Shown here piece after piece: positions 4,401 to 64,000 of a stretch of DNA of 64,000 bases (the stretch's first letter is position 1; every line of letters begins with the position of its first letter). Where the stretch lies: NCBI GenBank assembly GCA_001750645.1, contig MEIF01000004.1:1-64000 (forward strand), given 5' to 3'. Both the position numbers and the translations under genes were made by a program. Source of the stretch: Gammaproteobacteria bacterium AqS3. GTDB taxonomy: Bacteria; Pseudomonadota; Gammaproteobacteria; MEIF01; AqS3. Below the pieces are notes generated by a model. It searched no databases, was not told where the DNA came from, and was given only the letters and a program-made list of their open reading frames with translations.

Positions 4401-7400
4401 AAACACAGCGGATTACGGGTGCCAATGCCTCCATTCCCGGCGGCGGCAGCCGCAGCATTGCGACCCAGGGCGTGCACGCCTGCATTCAATACAGGGACGC
4501 AGCCCTGCAGAGCGCCACCGGCTACGGATCCTGCCCCGATGCCGGCAACAGCGGCAACTATTCGCTCAGCGCCCCGGATGCCGCCCCGATCATTTACTTC
4601 CCGTCGACCAGGCCGACAAATCTGGGCGGACCTATCCGAGCCGGCGCCGGCCTGAAGCTGTCCCTGACCAGCATCACGCTGGTGGAGGGCGAGTCAAACG
4701 AGTTCAATGTCAGCCTGACCTCCCCGCCGGCCAGCGGCTCGGCCAACAATGTGACGGTGACCATTCCCCAGCCGTCGGATGGCAGCGTGAAGTTTGACAC
4801 CAACACGTCTCAGAGCGGCGATCAGAACACCCTGACCTTCACCAGCGACAACTGGAGCCGGCCGCAGAGTGTCAGGGTCACCACCCGCGCTGACGGCGAT
4901 GCCCTGCCGGTCTCTGAGACCATCACGCTGACCGCCAGCGGCGGCGGATCGGGCAACTCAAGCTATGCCGGCGTCACCCGGAACCTGACGCTCCGGGTGA
5001 CTGAAACGCACCGTGCCGGGCTGATCGTCAACCCGGAAGACCTGCAGGCGCCAAAAAATTCCAACAGCACCTTCACGGTGCGGCTGACAGCGCTGCCAAG
5101 TGCCAATGTGACGGTGAATGTGTCCGAGCCCACCGGCTTCGTCATCGACACCGACGGGACTTCGGGAGGCGCCAGACCGAAACAGCTGACCTTCACGACC
5201 GACAACTGGAGCGACCCGCAGACGGTGCTCCTCTTTCCCACCCTTTCTGCACCGCTGGGCAACAACGTCGCCACCGTCAACCTCTCCGCCTCGGGCGCCG
5301 GCGAGTACGCCGGAGTCACCGGCAGCATGACGGTTGATGTCGGGGAGGCGCCTTCCGCGGTGAGTGTCGGCCCCCAAAATATGCTGACCGTCACCGAGGG
5401 GCAGAAGGGAAGTTTCTATGTCGTATTGACCCGGCAGCCGACCGGCGATGTGCGGGTGAGGCTCAGGAGGACGAGCGGCAACTCCAAGGTATTCGCCGAC
5501 GCCGATCCGCTCCAGCAGGGCACGCAGGGCACGCTGATCTTCACGAGGGACAACTGGGCCATCAGGCAGACGGTGTCGGTATTCGTCGACCACGACGACG
5601 ACGCCAACCCCCCCGACCCCGCGACTGCGGAACTGACGCTGACCCCCTCGGGCGGCGGGGTCGACACCCAGGCGCCTATTGTGGTCGTGACCGTCAGGGA
5701 GGATGACTTCGAGGCAACCCCCTCTGCGTCCACCTGTTTCACTGTTCCGGGAAGCAGTACTGGCAATTTCGAGAACAGCTGCGCTCACGCCGTCAAGTTT
5801 GTGGGAAGTTACATAATTCCGTCGACAGGTAACGTGTCGCAATTTAGTTTGACATGGGCTCCCGGCAGTACAGGTGCCATTTACCCCAATGCAAATGCGT
5901 GCATTCAGTACAGGGACGACAGCATCCAGCGTGACACCGGCTTTGGACTGTGCCCCGCCCGCACCAATCAGAACTACACGCCGACCGATCCTCCGACGTA
6001 CTACTTCCCATCGACCCGGCCCACGAACCTTGGCGGCCCCATCAGAGCGACTGCCGGATTCAGGGATCTGCCCTCGACGTTCACGGTGGATGAGGGCGAG
6101 ACCGGCCAGCTCAATGTCCGGCTGACCACCCCGCCCGGCGACGACGTGACGGTGACCCTGGCCCAGCCGGCGGCCAGCACCGGCGTGAATGTCTACACCG
6201 GCAAGGCGGCGGGGGGTCAGAACACCCTGACCTTCACCGATGACAACTGGGGCACGACCCAGACTTTCTTCATCGAAACCGAGGATGACGACACGGCCGA
6301 TCAGCAGGCCAACGTGACCCTCAGCTTTTCGGCCTCCGGCGGGGGCGGCACGAACGGGATCAGCTACGCCGGCGTCAGCGACACCGTGACGCTGGTCGTG
6401 CGCGAGAAGAACGCCGCCGATTTTGTGCTCAGCACCGGAGACACCGGCCTTGATCTGATCAAGGGCGGCAGCAATACCTTCACCGTGCGGCTGGCGTCGA
6501 AGCCGACTGCGAATCTCACGGCGACCCTGGTGCAGCCGCCGGCGAGCACCGGCGTGACGCTCGACACCGACCCGGACACGGACGACGACCAGAACACCCT
6601 GGCCTTCACGACCGGCAATTGGAATGCCGCACAGACGGTGACCGTCAGCGCCGCCGGCAATGCCCCCGTCAACAACAACGTGAACATTGCACTCAGCGCC
6701 GCCGGCGCCGCTGAATACGCTTCCGCCACCGGCAGCGTCATCGTCGCTGTGCGGGAGCCGGATGTCACGCTGGTGCTCAGCAAGACCTCGGTGGACGTGG
6801 CCGAGGGCGGCCAGGGCAGCTTCACCGTCAGGCTGAGCGAGCGCCCGGCGGGCAGTGTCACGCTGACGGCGACCCAGCCGAGCAACACCGATGTCACCGT
6901 CGATGTCGACGACGAGGTCAAGGGTGATCAGACCACGCTGACCTTCACGAGGGACAACTGGGACACCGCGCGGACGGTGACCGTCGCCGCCGCCCACGAC
7001 GCCGATGAGTTCTCCGACAGCGCCACCGTCGCCCTGGCGATCACGGGCGACAGCGTCCAGGTCGGCGTGTCCGTGACGGACGACGACTTCTCCTCGGTGG
7101 GGGAGAGCCTGTCGGAGCTGGGATGCCTTAGCCACGAGATCAAGCGGGAGAGCGGTGGCAGGCTAGACATGAAGTTGGACAACAACTGCACCCGCACTGT
7201 GTATTACAAGGGCTATGTGACCGGCCACTCAAGGATCCCCAACCGCTCGTTAAATGCAAGTCTCAAGCCGGGTGCGTCTGTACAATTTGCAGCAGTTTAT
7301 GGAAGGGTTTGCGCCCAGTTTTCCGACGAGGAGCAGCGCAACTCCGGCTATGGCACCTGCCCGTATGGCCAATATTCCAACTACAACGAACCCTCATTCC

Positions 7401-10400
7401 CCACGCCTCCCGTATTCGCTCTCCCGGCCAAGCTGAGCGCCGGCTTCAGGGATCTCCCCTCAAGCATCACGGTGGCCGAGGGGTCGACCGGCCAGTTCAG
7501 CGTCAGGCTGACCACCTCGCCCAGGCAGAATGCGGGCGATGCCAATGTGATGGTGACCATTGCCCAGCCGGCGGCGAGCACCGGCCTGAGGGTCGACACC
7601 GACCCCAGCACGCCGGGCGACCAGAACACCCTGACCTTCAGCGGCGACAACTGGAGCACGACCCAGAGCGTGTATGTCAGGTCCACCGATGACGACGATG
7701 CCGTCATGCAGCCCGACGTGAGGCTCGACCTGAGCGCCAGCGGCGGGGGGTCGGGCGACTACAGCTACGCCGGCGCCACCGGCAGCGTCGACGTTAGCGT
7801 GCAGGAGAGCGACAGAGCCCTCTTTGTCCTCTCTGCGGAACGTGTGACCGTATCCCAGGGCCAGATCGCAACCTTCAGTGTGAGGCTGAGCTCACAGCCG
7901 TCCGAGACTGTCACGGCAACCCTGGCCCAGCCGTCCGCAGCCGCCGGCGTGATGATCGACACCGCCCCGAGCATGAGCGGCCTGGACAACACCCTGACCT
8001 TCACCAGAAACAACTGGAACGCCGTGCAGAATGTGACCGTTCTGGCCGAAGCCGACGCCATTGCCGGCAGCAACGTCGCGGTCGTCGCCCTCAGCACCTC
8101 GGGCGCCGACGAATACGCCGACACCACAGCCAGCCTCTCGGTCAGCGTTGAGGAATCATCTCTCGCCGTGCAGATCTCCCCGCGGAGGCTGACCGTTCAG
8201 GAGGGCGGGACGGCAACCTTCACGATCCGCACCAGCGCGCCGCCGTCCCAGCAGGCGAGCAGCACCGTGGCCTGGAGCACTCCCGCCGGCGCCGATGTGA
8301 CGGTGCTCGCCGCAGGCGGCGATGAGGAGGTGACCATCAACCAGACCAACTGGAGCACGGAGCAGGTCGTGACGGTCTCTGCGCCGCACGACAGCGACGG
8401 GCTCGACGAGCGCATCTTCCTCCGCTTCAGCGGCACCAACGAGCTGGCCGGCATCAACGGCGCCATCGATATCATCGTCGAGGACGATGAGGACTACAGC
8501 ATCACCGTCTCGCCTGATGAGTGGGTGATGTCCGAGGGCACCGTGCTTCGGGGCTCGGGCGGACAGTCGACCACCACGCAGCTCGATGGCGTGCGAATCA
8601 GCCTGTCGGAAGCCGGCAACTTCCAGCTTCACCTTGACCCGCATCCCGCCAACCCCGCATTGCTCAAGGTCGGCGATGACGATGACGGGGTTCTCCTGTC
8701 ATTCAGCAGCGCCAATGCAACCACACCCCGGAGCCTCAAAGAATTGGCGAGCGCCGGCGGGGGGGCCAGTTCCGCCGTGATACTGGAGGCGCTTGACGAC
8801 AGCAACACCGCCGATGAAACCTATACCCTGACCATCAGAGGCAGGGACAGCTTCGCCGGCGCCGGCAGCTTTTCCGGCATCAGCAGGGAGGTCAAGCTGA
8901 CCGTGCTCGACGACGACATCGGCGTCGTCGATGTGTCGACGGAGAGCCTCACATTGACCGAGGGCGACACGACCGACAGCACCCTGATGGTGCGGCTGAG
9001 GAACCAGCCGAGCGCCAATACCAGCGTCCAGGTCGAGCTTGAGGACGACGCCAACCAGGGCACGGCGCCCACCCTGGTCTCGGCGTCGGGAACGCTGAGC
9101 CTGACCTTCACGACCGACAACTGGAGCAGGCCGCAGAGCGTGGGGATCGCCGTGGCGGAGGACACCGACCTCCTGGACTACCAGGGCACCATCAAGCTGA
9201 CCGCGAGCAACTCCTCCAACGACACCTTCAGAGACGGCGAGGTGCGCCTGATCGTTCAGGACAACGACGACATCGAGCTGGCGGTGTCGGAGGATGAGCT
9301 GACCATCGAGGAGGGCGACTTCGCGACCTTTACGATCCAGCTGGAGGACGACCCCGGCGGCGACAGGACGGTCATGCTGGAATCCAGCAACTCCGATGTC
9401 ACGTTCAGGCCGGCCTCGCTGAAATTCGACCGGGACGACTGGGACGATCCCCAGACCGTGCGCATCAGCGTGGCCCAGGACAGCGACACCGAGGACGAAA
9501 CCGCCGAAGTCGACATCACCGGCGACAGGCTTGAATCCGCATCGCTGACGGTGACGATCAGCGACGATGAGAACTTCCCGCTGACCCTGTCTCGTGCGGC
9601 GCTGAATCTCACCGAGGGGACGAGCGAGAACTTTACGGTGAGCTACGACGAGGACCCCGGAAGCAGCGGTGTGACGTTTGCCCTGTCGTCCAACGACTCC
9701 GCTTCCGCCATCACGATCAGCCCGACCACGCTGACCTTCACCAGCGGCAACTGGGAGACTCCGCAGACCGTCACGCTCACCGCAGCCGAGGACGCCGACG
9801 AGGAGGACGCCAGCGAGCGCATCGACCTCACCCTCAGCGCTGTCGCCTCGGCATCGGCGGTGGCCTCGGTGGAGGTGTCCATATTCGACAACGACGGCAC
9901 CCCGATGACCGCGACCCCCACCACACTGGCCTTGGCCGAGGGTGCAGACGGAACCTTCACTGTCCGGCCGCAGTCGGATCCGGGGGGCAGCCTGACCGTC
10001 AATGTCACCTCGGACAACGCCGATGTCACGGTCGACACGGATGCCGTCGCGGCCGGCAGTCAGACCTCGCTGACCTTTGACAGCTCCAACTGGACCACCG
10101 CCCGCACTGTGAGCGTCACCGCCGGCCATGACGCCGACCGCAGCAATGACACCGCCAATGTTGTCGTCAACGCCATCGGCGCTGTGGCCGCCATCGTGGT
10201 GGTGAGCGTCACCGATGACGACCCCCTGGGGCTGGAACTGTCCGCCTCGAGCGTGGACATCGTCGAGGAGGGCACGGAGAGCATCACGGTGCGCCTCGAC
10301 AAGCAGCCCAGCGACACTGTGGTGATCGGGTTCACCGCCGACAGTGCCGACCTCACATTCGAGAGCGGCAACCCGATGACCTTCAACTCCGGCAACTGGA

Positions 10401-54810: not shown

Positions 54811-57800
54811 CTAAGCAGCTATCAGATTCTCTGAAATTGCCTTCGCTTGTTGCAATACTAATATCACAGTCTCTCTTTGTTGATCATCCGGGTAGCTGTA
54901 TCTTCTCAGCAGTGCCCGGATCATTAGACGCATTTCTGCCATAACATTTTCCCGAACTGTCCAATCCACTGTATGCTTTTCGCGCAGTTTTTTCGCAATT
55001 TCACGCGCCAGCTCTACTAGAACCGCCTCTTCCATTAACTTTTGTGCGGATTGATTCTTAGCAATGGCGTCATAGAAGGCTTCTTCATCTGCATCTAAGT
55101 TATAGCTATTCCTAAGCTTCAGATCTTCTTGGAACTGCTTTGCTATAGCGATCATTTCTTCAATCACCTGGGCTGCTTCAATCACACGGTTGGCGTATCT
55201 ATTAAGTGTTTTTGAGAGCAGCTCACTGAACTTGTTTTGCATGACCATGTTGGTTTTGAATCTGCTTCTCACTTCATCTCTTATCAGTCGCCGCAACAAT
55301 TCAATCGCAAGATTCTTATGCGGCATATTCATGACCTCTCTGAGAAACTCATCTGAGAGTATGGAAATGTCTGGATTTTTTAGCCCTGCAAGTTTGAATA
55401 CATCTGCGACGCCTTCCCCCACTATGGCTTGGGAGAGCAGTCGTCTCAAGTGATGGTCAATATCGATCTCCTCATCTCCATCATCACTTCGGTCACCTTT
55501 GACCAAGGCGGCGCGAACTGCTTGGTGGAATGCTACTTTTCGGGACAATGCTAAAGCTTCATCCAATGTTCCGCAAAGTGCAAATGCCTTTGTCATTTGC
55601 AGGACGGCATCTGCATATCTTCGCTTGCCTTCATCTTGTTCAAGAATGCGGTCAAGGCATTCTGGGATTAACGCCAGTGCGCGGGTTTCAAATTGCTTCC
55701 AGTCCACTGGATGCAGAAGATCTCCTGCGACCTGGAGCTTTTCTTTAAGGATACGCAGCGCCTCATTGGAGTCAATGATGGGGCGGCCTTTGCCTCTTGC
55801 CGTGCTGTAAGTTGACAATGCTTCTCGGAGTTGAGGAGCGATGCCGATATAGTCGACTATTAGCCCTCCCAGCTTATTGTGAAAAACGCGGTTGACCCGG
55901 GCGATTGCTTGTGCAAGGTTGGCCCCGTGCATTGGTTTGTCGACATACATCGTGGCCAGGCAGGGGACATCAAAACCAGTCAGCCACATATCTCGCACGA
56001 TGACGATCTTGAGTTCATCATTCGAGTCTTTGAAGCGCTTTTCGAGATCCTTTTTTTGACCCTTATTGGAGTGATGTGGCTGTAAATGTGCTTCATCGGA
56101 AGCATCCGTAGTCATCACCACTTTGATCGCTCCCCCGGTGTGATCATCGGAGTGCCAATCCGGCTCCAATTCCACAATCTTTTCATATAGACGCACGCAG
56201 ATATCACGCGACATTGTGACGATCAAAGCCTTGCCGGGTTGAGTTTTGCTGCGATTTTTGTAGTGCTGTATCAGGTCTTCCGCAACTTCTTTTAGGCGTT
56301 CATCCGTGCCAACAACTGCTTCAAGAGCTGACCATTGTCTTTTGGCTTTTTCCTTTTCTCTCGGATTCGCCGATTCGCTGTCAAGGATGTCTTCGACTTC
56401 TTGGTCAACAACTGGTAATTCAGATTGAGCCAAGTCGATTTTGGCCAGTCTGGATTCGTAGTAAATGGGCACCGTCGCACCATCATCAACTGCCTGTTGG
56501 ATGTCATAGATGGACACATAGTTGCCGAAAACCGCCTGTGTATCGCGATCATTTTTCGAAATTGGAGTTCCTGTAAAGGCCAGGAAAGTTGCGTTGGGCA
56601 GTCCGTCCCTCAGTGATCTGGCAAGGCCGTATTTGAACTCGCCAGTCTCGCTGTCGAACTTGGCCTTGAAACCGTATTGGCTGCGATGGGCTTCATCCGC
56701 TATAACCACGATATTGTGGCGATCAGTTAGGACGGGGAATGTGTCCTCTTCAGGTTCCAGGCCAAATTTCTGAATGGTGGTGAAGATGATGCCGCCGGAG
56801 GGGCGGTTCATTAGATACTCCCGCAGTTCAGCTCGAGAATGTGCCTGCTTTGGCGTTTCGCTCAGCAATTCACCGGAATTGGCGAAGACACTGAATAGCT
56901 GGCCGTCCAGTTCTTGTCGGTCCGTAACTATCACAACAGTGGGGTTTTTCAGGCGAGGCTCTGCAATCAGACGGCCTGCCAGACATGCCATCTCAATGCT
57001 TTTCCCCGCACCTTGCGTATGCCACACAACACCGCCTTTTTTGTTGCCTTCTTGGGATGATGCGGACACAACACTCTCAACGGCTGACTGCACGGCATGG
57101 AACTGGTGGTAGCCGGCAATTTTTTTGTGGATGGCTCCCTCGTCTTCAAAGATGCAAAAGTAGCGCAGGTAGTTGAGGAAAATTTCTTTGTCGAACAGCC
57201 CTTTAACCAGGGTTTCAAGCTCTCGGTGCTTTCCAAGCGGATCGATCTCCTCGCCATCAATAGTGCGCCAGCGCATGAAGCGCTGCCTCTCTGCACTTAA
57301 CGAGCCCAGACGAGCGTGGATGCCGTCAGAGATGACCAGGCAGGTGTTGTAGTTAAAAAGATCGGGAATGTCATTTTTGTAGGTTTGCAGCTGGTTGTAT
57401 GCCTTTTTAATACAGGCCTGTTCATCTGCCGCATTTTTGAGCTCAATAACGGACAGCGGCAGGCCATTCAGAAATACCAGCACATCGGGACGTCGCGGTT
57501 GTTTGTGCCCCTCAAGGGTGAACTGATTGACAACCAGCCAGTCGTTGTTTTCAGGGTTGTCAAAATCAATGATTTTGAGTTGCTTTCCGAGTTCCTGATT
57601 GTCTTCGTGATAGGTCACTTGGAGACCCCTGGTTAGCCACGAATGGATCTGACGGTTGCACGACATCAAGGCGGGAATATTTGGGTTGAGAATTTGGGAC
57701 AGTGCAGAATTGATCGCTGTTAGGGGAATTTCGGGATTGAGTTGGGTAAGGGCAGAGAGCAAACGATCATGCAGAGTGACGGTTCGGTAGTCGGATCGTT

Positions 57801-57912
57801 CAGGAGCTTTACCGTCGTGCGCAATGTCAAATCCGCACTGATACTCATAGCCGAGTTCTTTAAAGAACTCGATGCATTGCTGTTCAACTTGGTCTTCAGT
57901 TATCAGTGCCAT
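54811..57912 (-). CDS. hsdR: Type I restriction enzyme subunit R
   Basis: 1033 residues; ATP-dependent translocase and nuclease of a type I restriction-modification complex. The N-terminal PD-(D/E)XK nuclease is visible as RRPDVLVFLNGLPLSVIELKNA (about 160-180). The helicase motor has WHTQGAGKS (motif I), DEAHRSQ (motif II) and FTGTPI (motif III). The C-terminal 300 residues are helical and bind the M2S core. Its ATG shares one base with the hsdS1 TAA, so it is the last gene of the minus-strand operon. It is the only hsdR seen for two hsdM/hsdS modules. Confidence 0.95.
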   Translation of the reverse strand: MALITEDQVEQQCIEFFKELGYEYQCGFDIAHDGKAPERSDYRTVTLHDRLLSALTQLNPEIPLTAINSALSQILNPNIPALMSCNRQIHSWLTRGLQVTYHEDNQELGKQLKIIDFDNPENNDWLVVNQFTLEGHKQPRRPDVLVFLNGLPLSVIELKNAADEQACIKKAYNQLQTYKNDIPDLFNYNTCLVISDGIHARLGSLSAERQRFMRWRTIDGEEIDPLGKHRELETLVKGLFDKEIFLNYLRYFCIFEDEGAIHKKIAGYHQFHAVQSAVESVVSASSQEGNKKGGVVWHTQGAGKSIEMACLAGRLIAEPRLKNPTVVIVTDRQELDGQLFSVFANSGELLSETPKQAHSRAELREYLMNRPSGGIIFTTIQKFGLEPEEDTFPVLTDRHNIVVIADEAHRSQYGFKAKFDSETGEFKYGLARSLRDGLPNATFLAFTGTPISKNDRDTQAVFGNYVSIYDIQQAVDDGATVPIYYESRLAKIDLAQSELPVVDQEVEDILDSESANPREKEKAKRQWSALEAVVGTDERLKEVAEDLIQHYKNRSKTQPGKALIVTMSRDICVRLYEKIVELEPDWHSDDHTGGAIKVVMTTDASDEAHLQPHHSNKGQKKDLEKRFKDSNDELKIVIVRDMWLTGFDVPCLATMYVDKPMHGANLAQAIARVNRVFHNKLGGLIVDYIGIAPQLREALSTYSTARGKGRPIIDSNEALRILKEKLQVAGDLLHPVDWKQFETRALALIPECLDRILEQDEGKRRYADAVLQMTKAFALCGTLDEALALSRKVAFHQAVRAALVKGDRSDDGDEEIDIDHHLRRLLSQAIVGEGVADVFKLAGLKNPDISILSDEFLREVMNMPHKNLAIELLRRLIRDEVRSRFKTNMVMQNKFSELLSKTLNRYANRVIEAAQVIEEMIAIAKQFQEDLKLRNSYNLDADEEAFYDAIAKNQSAQKLMEEAVLVELAREIAKKLREKHTVDWTVRENVMAEMRLMIRALLRRYSYPDDQQRETVILVLQQAKAISENLIAA

Positions 57913-58547
57913 TAGATGCCAGCCTCTTCTAAGAGTGTTTCTGCATCCGGAATTCGGAGTTCGCCTGAGATGAGTTTGGGGAGCAGGGTGTTTCGCAACT
58001 TTACGAGTGCAGAGCTCTCTCTATGGCTTATTTCAATTCTTTCGAATAGAGGCTTTAAGAGGATGTGAAATATTTGAAATAAGTCATCAGGAGGAAGGAT
58101 ACAGCGCGTATTGAGAATGCTTTGGTTGTCAACTTTGGGATAGGCCGTGCCATCTGCCAGTCGGGACAGCCTGTCTATGTTTGTGTCAGAGCAGACACAT
58201 AAATAGACAAATATTGCATAAATCTCTTGCTTTGGAGTGAGGACTGCAAAACCAGTGCTGCCCGTGAGGTACTCTCGCTGTATATACCCGAATGACTTAT
58301 TGCCCGGGCGTACAGTCCCAACTATCGTGTCGTTTATTGAAAGAATTCTTCGCGCACTGCTTGGGGCATCTTTCCATTGGTATAAATCAGTCCCTAAAAT
58401 GTTATTTTGTTTGATATTGCCCAGATTAAGAAAGTTAACTTCATTGGGATGGTTGTTCTTACGCCAACTGCTTTTGTTCAGTGTGGTTAACTCCTTGATA
58501 AAAGATAATTTCCAACCCTTTGGAATCCTGCCGATTTCTGAGTCCAC
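57912..58547 (-). pseudogene. hsdS: hsdS1, 3' part (second recognition domain), frameshifted or phase-off
   Basis: 211 codons from an internal GTG. SEIGRIPKGWKL marks the conserved start of the second target-recognition domain, and the end is KLRNTLLPKLISGELRIPDAETLLEEAG, the usual HsdS C-terminus. The same frame continues upstream, without stop, to the poly-G/C tract at 58636-58643, where it would join the 5' part if one base were added. So this is the second half of a single hsdS rather than an independent gene, although translation from the GTG cannot be excluded. It overlaps hsdR by one base. Confidence 0.8.
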
Positions 58548-58612
58548 AAACTCAGCGGGAAAGAGAACATCAATTTCATGCGGAAGCTTTGCAGATAATG
58601 CTTTCTTGTTAT

Positions 58613-59290
58613 TTATATCGTCTGGCAGTTTGGAAGGGGGGGGAAGGATGGGTTTTTAGCTTTCGCATACACAGGATCGAAGTCAACAAACCATGATTTG
58701 AATATTGCTTTGGCAATCTCTTCAAGGACTGTGATCTTTTTTTGATTGTGCTCGATTTTGTCGTCTAATGTGCCGAGGATATGAGCGATGGCTTTTTGAA
58801 GCTTAGAACTAGGAATTATTACTTCTATGGATTTTAGAACGCTCTTACTTATTTCTAAGAATGTGGAGCCGGAGGCATAAGATTTAATAGTTGGAGTTAT
58901 ATGCTTTAAAAGATAGTAAAAAAATTCCGGCTCATTTCCTTCTTGCAGGATTAAATTTTTGAAACCTTGATTTGTGGCAACCTCATTTTTCGCAATGGCA
59001 ATATAGCCAATAGGAGCTCTAGATGTAAATAAAACCGTATTCGGTGGTAATAGTTTTGCGGAACTTGAGTCAAGACCCTTCTGAGTAATAGAGCGTTCTC
59101 CATAACTGATATATCTTTCGTTATGAGAAGATAGATCTCTGGGAGTGATCCAGGATATTTCACCGTTGTAATTTTCAGAATTTTTGGTTGATGGTGTTCC
59201 TCCTGAAATTATTGAGGCAATATCTCCTAACCTAACTTTATGCCACGTATCTGACAGATGCCGCGTGGATTTGGGTATTGATGTCTTCAT
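58613..59290 (-). pseudogene. hsdS: hsdS1, 5' part (first recognition domain), ends at poly-C tract
   Basis: 225 codons: VRLGDIASIISGGTPS opens the first target-recognition domain, and the central conserved helix follows (AHILGTLDDKIEHNQKKI, then AIFKSWFVDFDPVYAKA). Seven codons after the run of eight C (minus strand) the frame hits TAA. With nine C the frame reads on through KLPDDINNKK into the 3' part, giving a 459-residue HsdS. The truncated form could still act as a half-subunit. The ATG at 59290 overlaps the stop of the HEPN gene (ATGA). Confidence 0.82.
58636..58643. repeat. G8/C8 homopolymer tract inside hsdS1
   Basis: Eight G on the plus strand (eight C in the coding strand) at the end of the conserved central helix region of HsdS. 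It sits exactly at the frame break, so slipped-strand changes would switch the gene between half-length and full-length forms. A sequencing error in the homopolymer would look the same. Confidence 0.8.
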
Positions 59291-59691
59291 TTTTCAGTGC
59301 TTATTGTTTTAAAAAATTGTTTTACACCACCAATGAATTCAGGAATTACACTTATTATGTTCTCTGTCAATTCTTTATTAAAATGACCGGGCAGGTATTT
59401 CCTAAGTTCTCTATATAGCAAACACTGTTCAGAATCAGAATGAAGCATTCTTAATTCATCTGCCCTTATAAATAATACCCTTGTGTCGGATACAGTCTCG
59501 CCGTATTCTTTTTCGATATAGGTTCGGAGCATCTTTTTAGTCGTTTCATAGCTGAGCTCAAACATCTTTATTAGCACCATGTCGGTACCAGTAGCATATA
59601 TGTCACTGCTTGCAGCCGAGCCATCCTGCCATTCTTTCCAGTAACGCTCTGGATTGGAATGGGCGCGTTGCATATTAATAAGATCTTTCAT
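59287..59691 (-). CDS. HEPN (HI0074-like) protein, paralogue without AMPylation Tyr
   Basis: 134 residues from ATG 59691, which overlaps the hsdM1 TGA (ATGA). It aligns with the HepT-like protein of the second module across its length: LIxxFExxYETxxKxLR near residues 40-56, then IPEFI near the C-terminus. The HEPN RNase motif is altered to Arg97-x5-His103, followed by Phe-Asn instead of x-Tyr, so the tyrosine that MntA-type enzymes AMPylate is missing. No nucleotidyltransferase is encoded next to it. It may be a regulatory or degenerate HEPN, or may use the enzyme fused to HsdS2. It is translationally coupled on both sides. Confidence 0.7.
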   Translation of the reverse strand: MKDLINMQRAHSNPERYWKEWQDGSAASSDIYATGTDMVLIKMFELSYETTKKMLRTYIEKEYGETVSDTRVLFIRADELRMLHSDSEQCLLYRELRKYLPGHFNKELTENIISVIPEFIGGVKQFFKTISTEK

Positions 59692-61232
59692 TGCTTGATC
59701 CACTCAAGGTTTTTGGCTATGTGAGCATCTAGGCTCTTTTCTTTCTCTTGCAGGTCTTGCAATTCTTGGGTTAGCCGATCAATTTTCAAGTTATAAGGTT
59801 CATCATCTTCTTGTTCAGGGGCGGTTCCAACGTACCTTCCCGGAGTCAGCACATATTCGTGTTTTGTTATCTCTTCTAAGGCGGCTGACCTGCAGAAGCC
59901 TGGAATATCTTTGTAATTCTCGCCAGTCTTCCATGCCCGAACGGTTTCGCTGATCTTGTCTCTATCCTCTTTGCTAAAGACCCGAAGAGTTCGTGTTTGC
60001 ATGGTTCCAAGATTTCGAGCATCAATGAACAAGGTTTCATTGCATCTGTCCCGACCATTTTTGGTTTTGTCATTGGTAAGAAACCAAAGGCATACTGGAA
60101 TTTGAGTGTTTAGAAACAATTGTCCCGGCAATGCAACCATTGCCTCAACCACATCATCACGAATCATTGCTTTGCGTATTTTGTTCTCACCGCTGGTGGC
60201 TGAGCTCATGGAGCCATTGGCCAAAAATACTCCAGCCTGACCTCCCGGTCGCAGTTTCCAAAGGATATGTTGCAGCCAGGCGTAGTTGGCATTGCCGATT
60301 GGCGGTCTGCCGAACCGCCAGCGAGGGTCACTCTCATATTTTTCACCGCCCCAATCTGAAATGTTGAAAGGGGGATTCGCGAGGATGTAGTCAAACTTGA
60401 GGTCGGGGAAATGATCGCGAGCAAAAGTGTCGGCTGGCTCTTTGCCCAAGTCGGTCGAGAAACCCCGAATTGCCATATTCATCGCGGCCAACCGCCAAGT
60501 TGTCGGATTGCTCTCCTGTCCATAAATGGAGATATCGTTTGTACGACCGCCATATGCTTTGATGAGTTCTTCGCTCTGGACAAACATCCCGCCCGATCCG
60601 CAACAGGGGTCATATACGCGCCCGGATGTGGGCGAAAGAATCGCCACAAGAATTTTGACCACATCTGAAGGAGTGTAAAACTGTCCGCCGTTTTGACCTT
60701 CTGCTGCTGCGAATTCTCCGAGAAAATACTCATAGACCTCACCTAGCAGATCGCCCTCATTGTAGTCCTTATTGAATCCGATAGTTGAGATAAGGTCAAT
60801 CAACTCCCCTAAGATCCTGGGATCCAACATCGTGCGTCCAAAGCGTTTGTCCAATTTCCCGCGCAAGGGAGGATTCTCTTGTTCAATCGTGGTTAAAGCA
60901 GCATCAACCAGGGCGCCGATATTCGGCTGTTTGGCTTTTTGTTTCAGTGTTTCCCAGCGCGCATCCTGCGGAACCCAGAACACATTATCCTTTGTGTAGT
61001 AGTCTCGCTCTTCAAGTTCTTTTTCGCATTCGGAAGGGTCTTTGCTGATGAAATAGTTCGATGACGGTTCTGAAACCATATCCCACACCCTGCCTCTCTG
61101 CCTTGCAAAGGTATCGGAGATGTATTTGAGAAAGATCAGGCCGAGAACAATGTGCTTGTACTCGGCGGCATCCATCTGCCCGCGCAGCTTGTCAGCTGCC
61201 TTCCAAAGCTTTCGTTTGAAGTCGGAGGTCAT
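59688..61232 (-). CDS. hsdM: Type I DNA methyltransferase subunit M (module 1)
   Basis: 514 residues; N6-adenine methyltransferase subunit. The start ATG at 61232 (MTSDFKRKLWKAADKLRG) follows GGGAG by about eight bases and gives the family N-terminus (KYISDTF). The SAM-binding motif I is DPCCGSGGMFVQSEEL, and the catalytic motif IV is NPPFNISDW. The QFYTPSDVVKILV stretch and NYAWLQHILWKLRPGGQAG are also typical. The C-terminus is helical and contacts HsdS. A 130-bp gap separates it from the MNT-HsdS gene upstream, so a separate internal promoter is possible, though none is obvious. Confidence 0.95.
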   Translation of the reverse strand: MTSDFKRKLWKAADKLRGQMDAAEYKHIVLGLIFLKYISDTFARQRGRVWDMVSEPSSNYFISKDPSECEKELEERDYYTKDNVFWVPQDARWETLKQKAKQPNIGALVDAALTTIEQENPPLRGKLDKRFGRTMLDPRILGELIDLISTIGFNKDYNEGDLLGEVYEYFLGEFAAAEGQNGGQFYTPSDVVKILVAILSPTSGRVYDPCCGSGGMFVQSEELIKAYGGRTNDISIYGQESNPTTWRLAAMNMAIRGFSTDLGKEPADTFARDHFPDLKFDYILANPPFNISDWGGEKYESDPRWRFGRPPIGNANYAWLQHILWKLRPGGQAGVFLANGSMSSATSGENKIRKAMIRDDVVEAMVALPGQLFLNTQIPVCLWFLTNDKTKNGRDRCNETLFIDARNLGTMQTRTLRVFSKEDRDKISETVRAWKTGENYKDIPGFCRSAALEEITKHEYVLTPGRYVGTAPEQEDDEPYNLKIDRLTQELQDLQEKEKSLDAHIAKNLEWIKQ

Positions 61233-61362: not shown

Positions 61363-62937
61363 TTATTCGATATCAGCCTTGCCGAGAAATCGTTCGGCAT
61401 CTGAAACATCCAGCTCGCCCGAGATCAGCTTGGGCTGCACGGTGTCCCGGAGTTGTTGCAGCACGCGGGATTCCTGCTGAAGAACAATCTGTCGATCCAC
61501 CAGAGGCTGGAATATCTCCCCCAGTTTCTCAAGGGTCGGCAAATCCGGCACCGCGCATACGGCCCGCTGCAGTTCTCTTTTATCCACGTGTCTGATTACA
61601 GTTGATTTGATTTCAGACAGAAACAGCAGCTCAGGAATAAAGTGCTCGACCCAGCCCGCCACAAACCACAGCGGAACGCCCCTGCCTTCAACCTTGAAAA
61701 CAGACCGGCCCAATGCGCCCTTGTCACCTGCCCAGTATTTTGCAAAAACTGAACCCGTCCATGAAAACAGAAAATCTCCATCACCAACGATGAGATCAGC
61801 GGGAGCATTCGATGTATAAAAATCATCATCCGTGTGCCCCTTGAGCAGCTGTGTGGTGGTGATTAAGGGGATTCTGTCCTTGTCCTCCAAGTGGAGATGT
61901 TTGTGACGGCCAGTTCCCTTGATGAAGGAGCCTATTTCATCTAGCGATTTGCACTGCCATCCTTTCGGAATTTTTCCAATTTCCGAGCCTGTCCGCTCGT
62001 CGGGCAACAGCTTCTTGAGTTCTGGAGCAAGACCGTATAGCGGGGAATCTGTTTCAGCATAGACGGGGTTAAAATCAACGAACCAGGATTTGAAAACAAC
62101 TTTGAAAGTTTCCTTCAAAATTTTCACTTTCTTATGATTATGATTGGTCTTATTTTCTAGTATATCGAGAGTACTAATAATTATTTTCTGTTTTTCAAGG
62201 GAAGGAAACTTTACAGGAATATCTAGGAATGCACTGGGTTCTAGCAAATTTACTGTTGACCAAACAGCCGTTGATAGCCAATAGCTTAGATACTGATCTA
62301 GATAATAGAAGAGAAATTTGGTTTGGACTTTATTTTCTGATTTAGATGTTATGCAATAGGCTGTTTGGTAAAGATTAAAATCACCTGAAACATACTGAAG
62401 AGAAACATCTTTATAATTACTTGAAACGATGATCACGGGACAGTCAAATAAATACTTGTTGCTTTTTCTGGTCGTGCCTAATTGAGGATATACATTACTT
62501 TTCCCGGCATTTTTTCTGGTGGGACTTTCGGCGGCAACATTCGCTATATCTCCCAATTTCACCTCGCACCACTCACTTGAAAGGGGACTGAGTAGCAACT
62601 TCTTTTGCAAGACATAGTGTGCTTTTTGTATGTTTGGTTTGAAGTGTTCAGGAATGTCATTCCACACTAATACATCCACCTCAAAAGGAAGATTGCTTTC
62701 TTCAAATGCTTCGCGTAGATTGTTTACCTCGCGTTGTTGAATTTTATCAGTAAAGACTGCTAGGTCTAGGTCTGAGGTGGGGCGGGACTGGAAAGTTATT
62801 CGTGATCCAAAAGCCCAAACTAGGGTGTTGGGCAGGTGAATGTTCAATAATTGTTTGACGAGCTGATAGTGCCCCGTTGTTAAATCAATATTGTCGAATT
62901 CTTTCACCTCCACTGACTTGGCCGCTAGCTTTCCCAC
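61363..62937 (-). CDS. hsdS: MntA-like nucleotidyltransferase fused to HsdS specificity subunit
   Basis: 524 residues. Residues about 20-115 are a minimal nucleotidyltransferase (MNT): Gly44-Ser45 with Asp56 and Asp58 (exact GSx10DxD) and a third Asp at 88 in FEVDVLV. From about 118 onward it is a full HsdS: first recognition domain (CEVKLGDIANVAAES), central helix with VVFKSWFVDFNPVYAE, second domain from SEIGKIPKGWQ, and the end TVQPKLISGELDVSDAERFL. The frame is open throughout with no stop between the parts. MntA-type enzymes AMPylate and silence the HEPN toxin HepT; the HEPN gene is directly upstream and overlaps this one by 13 bases. The start (GTG 62937) is uncertain; a GTG about 30 bases downstream has a better ribosome site. 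Fusion of these functions is unusual. Confidence 0.88.
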   Translation of the reverse strand: MGKLAAKSVEVKEFDNIDLTTGHYQLVKQLLNIHLPNTLVWAFGSRITFQSRPTSDLDLAVFTDKIQQREVNNLREAFEESNLPFEVDVLVWNDIPEHFKPNIQKAHYVLQKKLLLSPLSSEWCEVKLGDIANVAAESPTRKNAGKSNVYPQLGTTRKSNKYLFDCPVIIVSSNYKDVSLQYVSGDFNLYQTAYCITSKSENKVQTKFLFYYLDQYLSYWLSTAVWSTVNLLEPSAFLDIPVKFPSLEKQKIIISTLDILENKTNHNHKKVKILKETFKVVFKSWFVDFNPVYAETDSPLYGLAPELKKLLPDERTGSEIGKIPKGWQCKSLDEIGSFIKGTGRHKHLHLEDKDRIPLITTTQLLKGHTDDDFYTSNAPADLIVGDGDFLFSWTGSVFAKYWAGDKGALGRSVFKVEGRGVPLWFVAGWVEHFIPELLFLSEIKSTVIRHVDKRELQRAVCAVPDLPTLEKLGEIFQPLVDRQIVLQQESRVLQQLRDTVQPKLISGELDVSDAERFLGKADIE

Positions 62938-63347
62938 TCTATACCGGTTACTGCTTGATACAGTTCTATCGCATCTGCGATAAATTTGGGAATCAGTTCT
63001 AATACGTATAGAAGTTTTTCCAGGCTGTAATCATGTGAGGTTGTGTTACGCGCATCAACATAATTGAGCCAGCGATCAAGATTTTTGCTTAGCAGTCCAT
63101 TGTCACCAGCTGTTCTGAACATAAGTTTGGCTCCGTTGCCCGGGTCGGTTACTCCTAGATCTTCCGTAAGGTGGCGTCTTAGAGCCTTTAATATTGTTTC
63201 ATAGCATACTTCAAAGGACTGGATCAAGCCCATCTGGGCAAGTTCTTCAAGGTCATTGCTATCAGCGAGATGCTTGCCACCTTTGTAGGCTTCATGATAG
63301 CGTTGAAGGTTTTTCAGTGAATTTTCAAAGTCAGAGTAGTCAATCAT
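62925..63347 (-). CDS. HepT-like HEPN toxin (HI0074 family)
   Basis: 140 residues, all-helical. Motif Arg100-x4-His105-x-Tyr107 (in DARNTTSHDYS) is the Rx4HxY signature of HepT-type HEPN RNases, including the tyrosine modified by MntA. LIQSFEVCYETILKALRRHL is the conserved core helix. HEPN proteins with this motif cut RNA when freed from the antitoxin. The ATG at 63347 overlaps the upstream hsdM2 stop by eight bases, and the stop overlaps the MNT-HsdS frame. It is thus inserted between the M and S genes of a restriction operon. Confidence 0.85.
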   Translation of the reverse strand: MIDYSDFENSLKNLQRYHEAYKGGKHLADSNDLEELAQMGLIQSFEVCYETILKALRRHLTEDLGVTDPGNGAKLMFRTAGDNGLLSKNLDRWLNYVDARNTTSHDYSLEKLLYVLELIPKFIADAIELYQAVTGIEWES

Positions 63348-64000
63348 GGTTCGCCCTCAGTAGCTTGAAGTTTTTGATTATCTGAATGTCTAAATCTTTT
63401 CCCTCATTTTGCAAGGTGCCCCATTCTTTCGATAACCGGGTCATTTTTTCATCGTATGCCTCTTCTTCTTTTTCTTGAGGGGGTGCCATTCCAACATATC
63501 TTCCCGGATGTAATAAATAGTCATTCTTTTCAATATCTTCCAGAGAGGCTGCTTTGCAGAATCCTTTTATGTTCCGGTGGTCTTCGCTGGTTCTCCATAC
63601 CTGCACAGTATTTTTGATTTTAGCTATATCATCATCATCAAGGGATCGAAGAAAAGGGGTTTGCATGGAACCCAGCCTGCGGGCATCAATGAACAAAGTT
63701 TCACCGCGGCGATCACGGCCGTTGGCAGTTTTATCTTTGGTGAGGATCCATAAACACACTGGGGCGCCAGTATTTAGATAAATTTTATCAGGCAGAGTAA
63801 TTATTATTTCGACTGCATCACTATTGATCATTGACTTGCGAATTTTTCTTTCATTATCAGGACGAATAATTAAGGAACGGTTGCTCAGTACCACACCTGC
63901 CTGTCCATTTGGTCGAAGCTTCCAAAAAATATGTTGTAGCCAGGCATAATCAGTATTATTCAATGACGGCCGACCGAATTGCCAGCGCGGGTTATCTTCG
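63340..64000 (-). CDS. hsdM: Type I DNA methyltransferase subunit M (module 2), partial
   Basis: The C-terminal 219 codons of a second HsdM; the frame stays open to the right window edge. NPRWQFGRPSLNNTDYAWLQHIFWKLRPNGQAG aligns with hsdM1 of module 1 (as separate short blocks), as do ETLFIDARRLGSMQT, NIKGFCKAASLEDIEKNDYLLHPGRYVG and the helical tail. The catalytic motifs lie outside the window. Divergence from hsdM1 suggests separate origin or an old duplication rather than a recent copy. Stop overlaps the HepT-like start by eight bases. Confidence 0.92.
   Translation of the reverse strand, partial: EDNPRWQFGRPSLNNTDYAWLQHIFWKLRPNGQAGVVLSNRSLIIRPDNERKIRKSMINSDAVEIIITLPDKIYLNTGAPVCLWILTKDKTANGRDRRGETLFIDARRLGSMQTPFLRSLDDDDIAKIKNTVQVWRTSEDHRNIKGFCKAASLEDIEKNDYLLHPGRYVGMAPPQEKEEEAYDEKMTRLSKEWGTLQNEGKDLDIQIIKNFKLLRANHD

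Follow-up and report, generated by a model that had tools for sequence, protein, structure and literature searches.

The window analysed here, the first 64,000 bases of the 67,660-base contig MEIF01000004.1 from Gammaproteobacteria bacterium AqS3, holds a type I restriction-modification (R-M) locus in which the specificity subunit HsdS begins with a minimal nucleotidyltransferase (MNT) domain and is encoded directly behind a HEPN protein, HEPN1. With moderate confidence, this locus is read as a type VII (class I HEPN/MNT) toxin-antitoxin built into a type I R-M operon, with the antitoxin residing within HsdS, such that loss of HsdS would lead to growth arrest. The MNT-HsdS fusion is a recurrent, maintained architecture and, by analogy with characterised pairs, HEPN1 probably acts as an RNase toxin that the MNT carried on HsdS keeps disarmed. 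All features of the window described below lie on the minus strand.

The MNT-HsdS fusion and its HEPN partner

MNT-HsdS (524 aa) is encoded by a single open frame of 524 codons (61363-62937), whose GTG start overlaps the end of the HEPN1 gene. Its residues 1-115 (62593-62937) constitute an MNT of the MntA/HI0073 type. Within this part, residues 28-110 match the Pfam families Polbeta (5e-10) and NTP_transf_2 (3e-5, the latter above cut-off), HI0073 (1no5) is matched at 5e-16, and the MntA_antitoxin profile NF047752 is matched at 2.8e-10, under its curated cut-off. The GSx10DxD motif (G44 to D58, 62764-62808) is exact, with G44, S45, D56 and D58 in place and a third acid at D88. These four motif residues are invariant across 56 fused homologues; G44 and S45 belonged to the pattern used in the search, and D56 and D58 lay outside it.

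The remainder of the protein, residues 121-524 (61366-62577), is an HsdS with the two target recognition domains (TRDs) and two conserved helices of type I systems, arranged as TRD1, a long helix (247-286), TRD2 and a second long helix (466-506). Methylase_S matches residues 121-271 at 4e-18, and the PADLOC HsdS profiles reach residue ~520. An AlphaFold model built on a 56-row alignment (mean predicted local distance difference test score, pLDDT, 83) presents an MNT fold followed by this same series of elements. In Foldseek comparisons, the model aligned over more than 400 columns with solved HsdS chains (1yf2, EcoKI 2y7c, 5ybb and EcoR124I 7bst) and separately matched HI0073 (~100 columns, TMt 0.77) and the Legionella MNT. 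Open reading frame (ORF), Pfam, PADLOC and model thus all bear out the initial annotation, which had described a 524-codon nucleotidyltransferase-HsdS fusion with exact motif spacing. The PADLOC profile PDLC03138, named 'Type I specificity subunit', already contains the domain unremarked, the MNT alone matching positions 2-100 of its 485.

HEPN1 (62925-63347) is a predicted RNase toxin of 140 aa and of the HI0074/NTase_sub_bind type (PF08780, 3.4e-21), whose gene overlaps the start of MNT-HsdS by 13 bases and the stop of hsdM1 by 8. The active-site and AMP-acceptor motif R100-x4-H105-x-Y107 (63027-63050) is well conserved, R100 and H105 being invariant and Y107 present in at least 90% of 49 homologues. 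An overlapping upstream HEPN gene with Rx4HxY, preceded by hsdM, had also been predicted initially, and the PF08780 match, the motif and hsdM1 confirm it. The best PDB matches of the HEPN1 model (pLDDT 91) are the Legionella HEPN toxins 8xdj, 8yuf and 8xeh, to which HEPN1 is related by sequence (4.5e-5) as well as by fold. The closest PDB relatives by sequence are, for both domains, the Haemophilus influenzae proteins HI0073 (1no5, for the MNT) and HI0074 (1jog, for HEPN1), which to our knowledge are unfused, not linked to R-M genes and untested in function.

Class I HEPN/MNT pairs were defined by Yao et al. through the motifs RX4HXY and GSX10DXD (PMC7641770), and HEPN1 and the MNT bear both of these defining motifs of the experimentally tested pairs. 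The locus thus combines a PF08780 HEPN carrying Rx4HxY with an adjacent NTP_transf_2/Pol-beta MNT carrying GSx10DxD. The NCBIfam equivalog cut-offs are missed (18.7 bits for HepT and 40 for MntA against 60, and 42 against 55.8 for the HI0074 subfamily). Judged by sequence, the pair is a member of the broader class I HEPN/MNT class, outside the HepT and MntA equivalogs.

Recurrence of the fusion across genomes

The initial annotation had called for a search for MNT-HsdS fusions and for HEPN genes between hsdM and hsdS. GTDB representatives were scanned once with a single MNT pattern, and the 80 loci kept were annotated with hidden Markov models built from the first examples. MNT-HsdS fusions were found in 62 of the 80 loci, a share that should not be read as a prevalence, the pattern being biased towards one MNT subfamily. 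A HEPN gene lies at most 100 bases upstream in 59 of the 62 fusions, mostly overlapping by 10 or 4 bases, and hsdM lies upstream in 58. Rx4HxY is retained in 57 of the 59 adjacent HEPNs, and the MNT motif in 60 of the 62 fusions, the remaining two reading ADLD; where motif IV could be detected in the HsdM relatives, it is ANPPF. The fused rows with assigned taxonomy span at least 13 phyla. Since the same fusion appears in so many independently retrieved loci, the junction is neither an artefact nor a product of chance, and an assembly error, which the initial annotation had named as a refutation of its reading, is rejected.

Within the class of the window, MNT-HsdS fusions occur in 8 of 369 genomes, with a HEPN directly upstream in all eight. 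Among 60 further HEPN loci sampled from this class, three adjoin hsdM and 57 are not R-M linked. According to our own count, the module is present in about one-fifth of 54 close HsdM relatives, and in most of the others hsdM runs straight into hsdS. The slot between hsdM and hsdS may also be occupied by an unfused HEPN/MNT pair, as in the loci G115, G147 and G168 and in Acetobacter plasmids, where the order is hsdM-HEPN-MNT-hsdS-hsdR with the MNT as a separate gene. In Zymomonas mobilis pZMOB01 the MNT is fused to HsdS, and the protein is annotated merely as 'restriction endonuclease subunit S'. No MNT-HsdS was found in phage records.

In a tree of HEPN and MNT sequences (148 rows), the fused state requires 21 changes, at least 10 of them forced by well-supported branches, so that the fusion must have been repeatedly gained or lost. 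One ancient fusion inherited by all is not supported; several MNT lineages have become fused. HEPN and MNT distances are correlated (0.80, and 0.75 with HsdM held constant), and their correlations with HsdM distances are weaker (0.39 and 0.48). No correlation of HEPN or MNT distances with TRD1 was observed, which says little alone, since TRD1 identities have reached saturation, at 18%. Close pairs are more informative: where MNTs are 93-94% and HEPNs 96-97% identical, TRD1 is 21-30% and TRD2 31-42% identical (for L131/L116, MNT 94%, HEPN 96%, TRD1 27% and TRD2 31%). On these identities, DNA specificity is exchanged behind an unchanged antitoxin domain.

Several loci depart from the common arrangement. 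In a member of the Magnetococcales (L148:3193-6882), a HEPN is followed by an MNT-HsdM fusion of 687 aa and then by another HEPN and another MNT, the latter with a short part at its C-terminus; the antitoxin domain is here fused to the methyltransferase subunit as well. In a Nitrospira locus (L109:5447-7650), no HEPN was found, and hsdM is separated from MNT-HsdS by a DUF4258 gene and a cysteine-rich ORF of 80 aa; this ORF has a YgiT-like look and no Pfam match, as if another toxin-antitoxin pair had filled the slot. Additional genes of defence type may separate MNT-HsdS from hsdR, namely an AAA_13 ATPase gene in L045:6242-8566 and, in L046:9923-15011, an AAA ATPase resembling TrlF and two Schlafen-like genes, named by eye. 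The same L046 locus encodes an HsdM and an HsdS with large inserts (5177-7237 and 7699-9942) that look by eye GIY-YIG-like and DUF559-like.

A tandem locus with complementary decay

The locus in the window is a tandem. Unit 1 comprises hsdM1, HEPN1 and MNT-HsdS, and unit 2 (54811-61232), directly downstream, comprises hsdM2, HEPN2, hsdS2 and hsdR. The initial annotation assigned the families correctly and was also right about the motifs, the order of the genes and the fusion; it overlooked the decay of HsdM1 and the second unit with its degenerate HEPN2.

The C-terminal 219 codons of hsdM1 (63340-64000) fall in the window and the gene continues to position 64896 of the contig (518 aa). Its motif IV reads NPLA in place of NPPF (contig 64030-64041, just past the window end), and of the 69 columns with a conservation of 95% or more among 58 relatives, HsdM1 deviates at 15 and HsdM2 at none. 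The (N/D)PPF of an active type I methyltransferase is therefore missing from unit 1 itself, which HsdM2 could serve in trans. The gene hsdM2 (59688-61232; N6_Mtase 7e-104, HsdM_N 2e-27) encodes an intact methyltransferase with NPPF; its frame is open from 61340, and the start at 61232 is placed by homology. It is doubtful whether unit 2 arose as a recent copy of unit 1: HsdM1 and HsdM2 are 56-57% identical, but HsdM2 is closer (69%) to that of G282, whose operon has no HEPN.

HEPN2 (59287-59703; PF08780, 1.6e-9) deviates at 10 of 18 conserved columns, against 2 of 18 for HEPN1, its catalytic His being replaced by Gly and its acceptor Tyr by Phe. An R-x5-H string that might in principle still function remains in it, and for this reason 'degenerate' is a better term than 'dead'. 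No HEPN2-like degenerate relatives were found in plasmids. Behind it, the N half of hsdS2 with TRD1 (58613-59290; Methylase_S 2e-36) has no MNT in front and is parted from the C half (57912-58547) by a shift of reading frame close to a C8 run. The two frames overlap at this run (58613-58655, the run itself near 58640), and the split may represent a switch for phase variation, a pseudogene or an error of assembly. The sole hsdR at the locus (54811-57912; HSDR_N 5e-49, SWI2_SNF2 2e-76, T1RH-like_C 4e-106; PADLOC REase_I, 1110 bits) lies behind unit 2 and is the shared downstream gene, which provides the operon with its HsdR.

Decay is thus distributed in a complementary manner: the toxin and antitoxin motifs are intact beside the decayed HsdM1 and lost beside the intact HsdM2. 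In G115, an intact HEPN and MNT-HsdS likewise occur without an hsdM of their own. A second tandem locus (L081:8046-17002) presents a HEPN and MNT-HsdS without their own hsdM, together with an hsdR remnant of 76 aa; behind these comes hsdM-HEPN-MNT-hsdS-hsdR, in which the MNT is separate.

Scans for promoters and terminators returned sites no more numerous than in shuffled sequences. About 110 bases upstream of hsdM1 and on the same strand, a gene with a TIR_2 domain (1.9e-17; contig 65008-66012, L009:3009-4013) may belong to the hsdM1 defence operon.

Proposed function

The proposed toxin-antitoxin builds on the observed architecture, motif conservation, recurrence, co-variation of HEPN and MNT, exchange of TRDs and complementary decay of the tandem; RNase toxicity and AMPylation are carried over from relatives, and the trigger is our inference. 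HEPN1 would be a latent RNase, kept off by the MNT at the N-terminus of HsdS through transfer of AMP to Tyr107. HEPN would be translated just ahead of MNT-HsdS, with which it overlaps, and because it comes first, any HEPN made without a folded HsdS, whether through mutation, insertion or an assembly that failed or was blocked, would be unmodified toxin. In this way, the module would turn HsdS loss into growth arrest and make HsdS, and hence the operon, difficult to discard. Since the MNT is an enzyme, a single one on each low-copy HsdS should be enough. The fused MNT would be of the short kind found in the Legionella pair, with HsdS sitting at the position of the missing helix alpha4.

Several points weigh against this proposal. 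Three fusions (L109, L132 and L141) have no recognisable HEPN. Two orphan HEPNs among the 60 class-sample loci (L205 and L225) keep Rx4HxY intact where the MNT is broken or missing, so that a HEPN without its MNT is not always lethal; the rule that HEPN always dies once the MNT is lost is not established on these 60 loci. The literature yielded no toxicity, AMPylation or phage data for any R-M-linked pair. Rapid re-arming is difficult to reconcile with a covalent modification, and the argument from tandem decay is built on two loci, the window and G115.

A further version, more tentative, is an antitoxin gated by assembly, in which the MNT would be efficient only in an HsdS folded with HsdM. 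The cell would thereby test its methyltransferase continuously, and removal or blocking of this enzyme by a phage or a mutation would let the RNase activity of newly made HEPN stop the cell. Somewhat less probable is the PrrC-like guard put forward in the initial annotation, according to which the assembled complex holds HEPN off, and anti-restriction proteins or damage free it to abort infection. It has the precedent of the anticodon nuclease PrrC and the type Ic system PrrI (PMC3710099); the antitoxin sits physically on the subunit bearing DNA recognition, and the AAA_13 family of the extra gene in L045 includes PrrC/RloC-type proteins. However, PrrC is held by binding, whereas the expected covalent neutralisation would leave modified HEPN inactive upon inhibition of the complex. 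Loss of the complex alone would not re-arm it and only newly made HEPN would be active, which renders release on inhibition incomplete as an explanation. No evidence of anti-restriction proteins blocking MNT was found, and the TRDs are swapped freely while HEPN and MNT stay unchanged, which indicates no specific contact of either with the DNA-recognition domains. Addiction to HsdS, or a check on its assembly, fits the translation order and the decay pattern better than release on inhibition.

It is unlikely that HEPN is an adaptor or substrate-binding subunit rather than a toxin, with MNT-HsdS modifying another protein (e.g. HsdM or HsdR) or DNA to regulate restriction. HI0074/HI0073 were first described as a two-protein nucleotidyltransferase and L148 has another MNT joined to HsdM, both in keeping with such a role. 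On the other side, 57 of 59 R-M-linked HEPNs retain the RNase His and the acceptor Tyr, residues for which an adaptor would have no use, and in the related Legionella pair the HEPN is an RNase that its MNT AMPylates (PMC11586414). Less likely again is a HEPN activated by the encounter of the complex with unmodified DNA, with DNA and RNA cleavage triggered jointly. A short linker does tether the MNT directly ahead of TRD1, where HsdS movements during HsdR translocation could act on it, but neither HEPN nor the linker showed any conserved element for sensing DNA or nucleotides, and unit 1 has kept HEPN and MNT although its HsdM activity is lost. Passive hitch-hiking of a mobile HEPN/MNT pair that entered the operon between its hsdM and hsdS genes, with read-through fusions as neutral by-products, is just as improbable: unfused pairs do share the slot and most sampled pairs are not R-M linked, but the fusion is repeated in well-supported places on the tree, its motifs are intact over a broad phyletic spread, and the MNT is retained while both TRDs are replaced.

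Relation to known systems

The window pair shares with HepT/MntA of Shewanella (SO_3166/SO_3165, PMC7641770) the Rx4HxY HEPN, the GSx10DxD MNT and adjacent co-varying genes. In that study, the motif Tyr of HepT was shown to be poly-adenylylated by MntA, and several of the pairs were found to have HEPN as their toxin (PMC7641770). The tested HepT/MntA pairs are free-standing with the MNT upstream, whereas here HEPN comes first and the MNT is fused to HsdS in a type I operon. The closest tested toxin by sequence and fold is that of Legionella pneumophila (8xdj, 8xeh, 8xeo), an RNase AMPylated by an MNT whose lack of helix alpha4 makes it bind weakly (PMC11586414). The Legionella MNT is short and of similar fold; the pair is free-standing, with one MNT to four HEPNs, while the window MNT instead continues into HsdS.

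In PrrC-PrrI, as predicted for the window, a HEPN RNase is kept silent by the type I R-M system encoded around it. PrrC is, however, an ABC-ATPase fused to HEPN and held by binding, in contrast to HEPN1, a bare 140-aa HEPN domain with a predicted AMPylating antitoxin in HsdS. Complete HsdS, HsdM and HsdR are common to the locus and to type I R-M systems in general, but ordinary systems have neither an MNT domain nor an embedded HEPN gene.

Many HEPN families have been linked to R-M operons, with PrrC-like roles proposed, and R-M-associated HEPN is described as fusing to nucleases, helicases and ATPases and not to methylases, in the parts of Anantharaman et al. 2013 (PMC3710099) considered here; in those same parts HsdS is not mentioned by name, and no MNT-HsdS fusion was found. 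In the portions of Makarova et al. 2009 considered, no mention of the fusion was found either. A literature search, covering the main text of freely accessible papers, returned just the general linkage of HEPN to R-M and no description of the fusion. The kinds of system concerned, type VII toxin-antitoxin and type I R-M, are known; the antitoxin-HsdS architecture is apparently new.

HEPN/MNT has been reported as the most abundant predicted toxin-antitoxin module of prokaryotes, with an unclear biological role (PMC7641770). The recurrence of the fusion across phyla places this module in a concrete context and offers a role that can be tested, either addiction to the restriction system or its guarding. 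It also suggests that many proteins annotated just as 'restriction endonuclease subunit S' carry a predicted protein-AMPylating domain. If the toxin is real, this may explain the resistance of some type I loci to deletion, and MNT-HsdS, present in dozens of unrelated bacteria, would constitute a recurring link between DNA restriction and predicted toxins that stop the cell.

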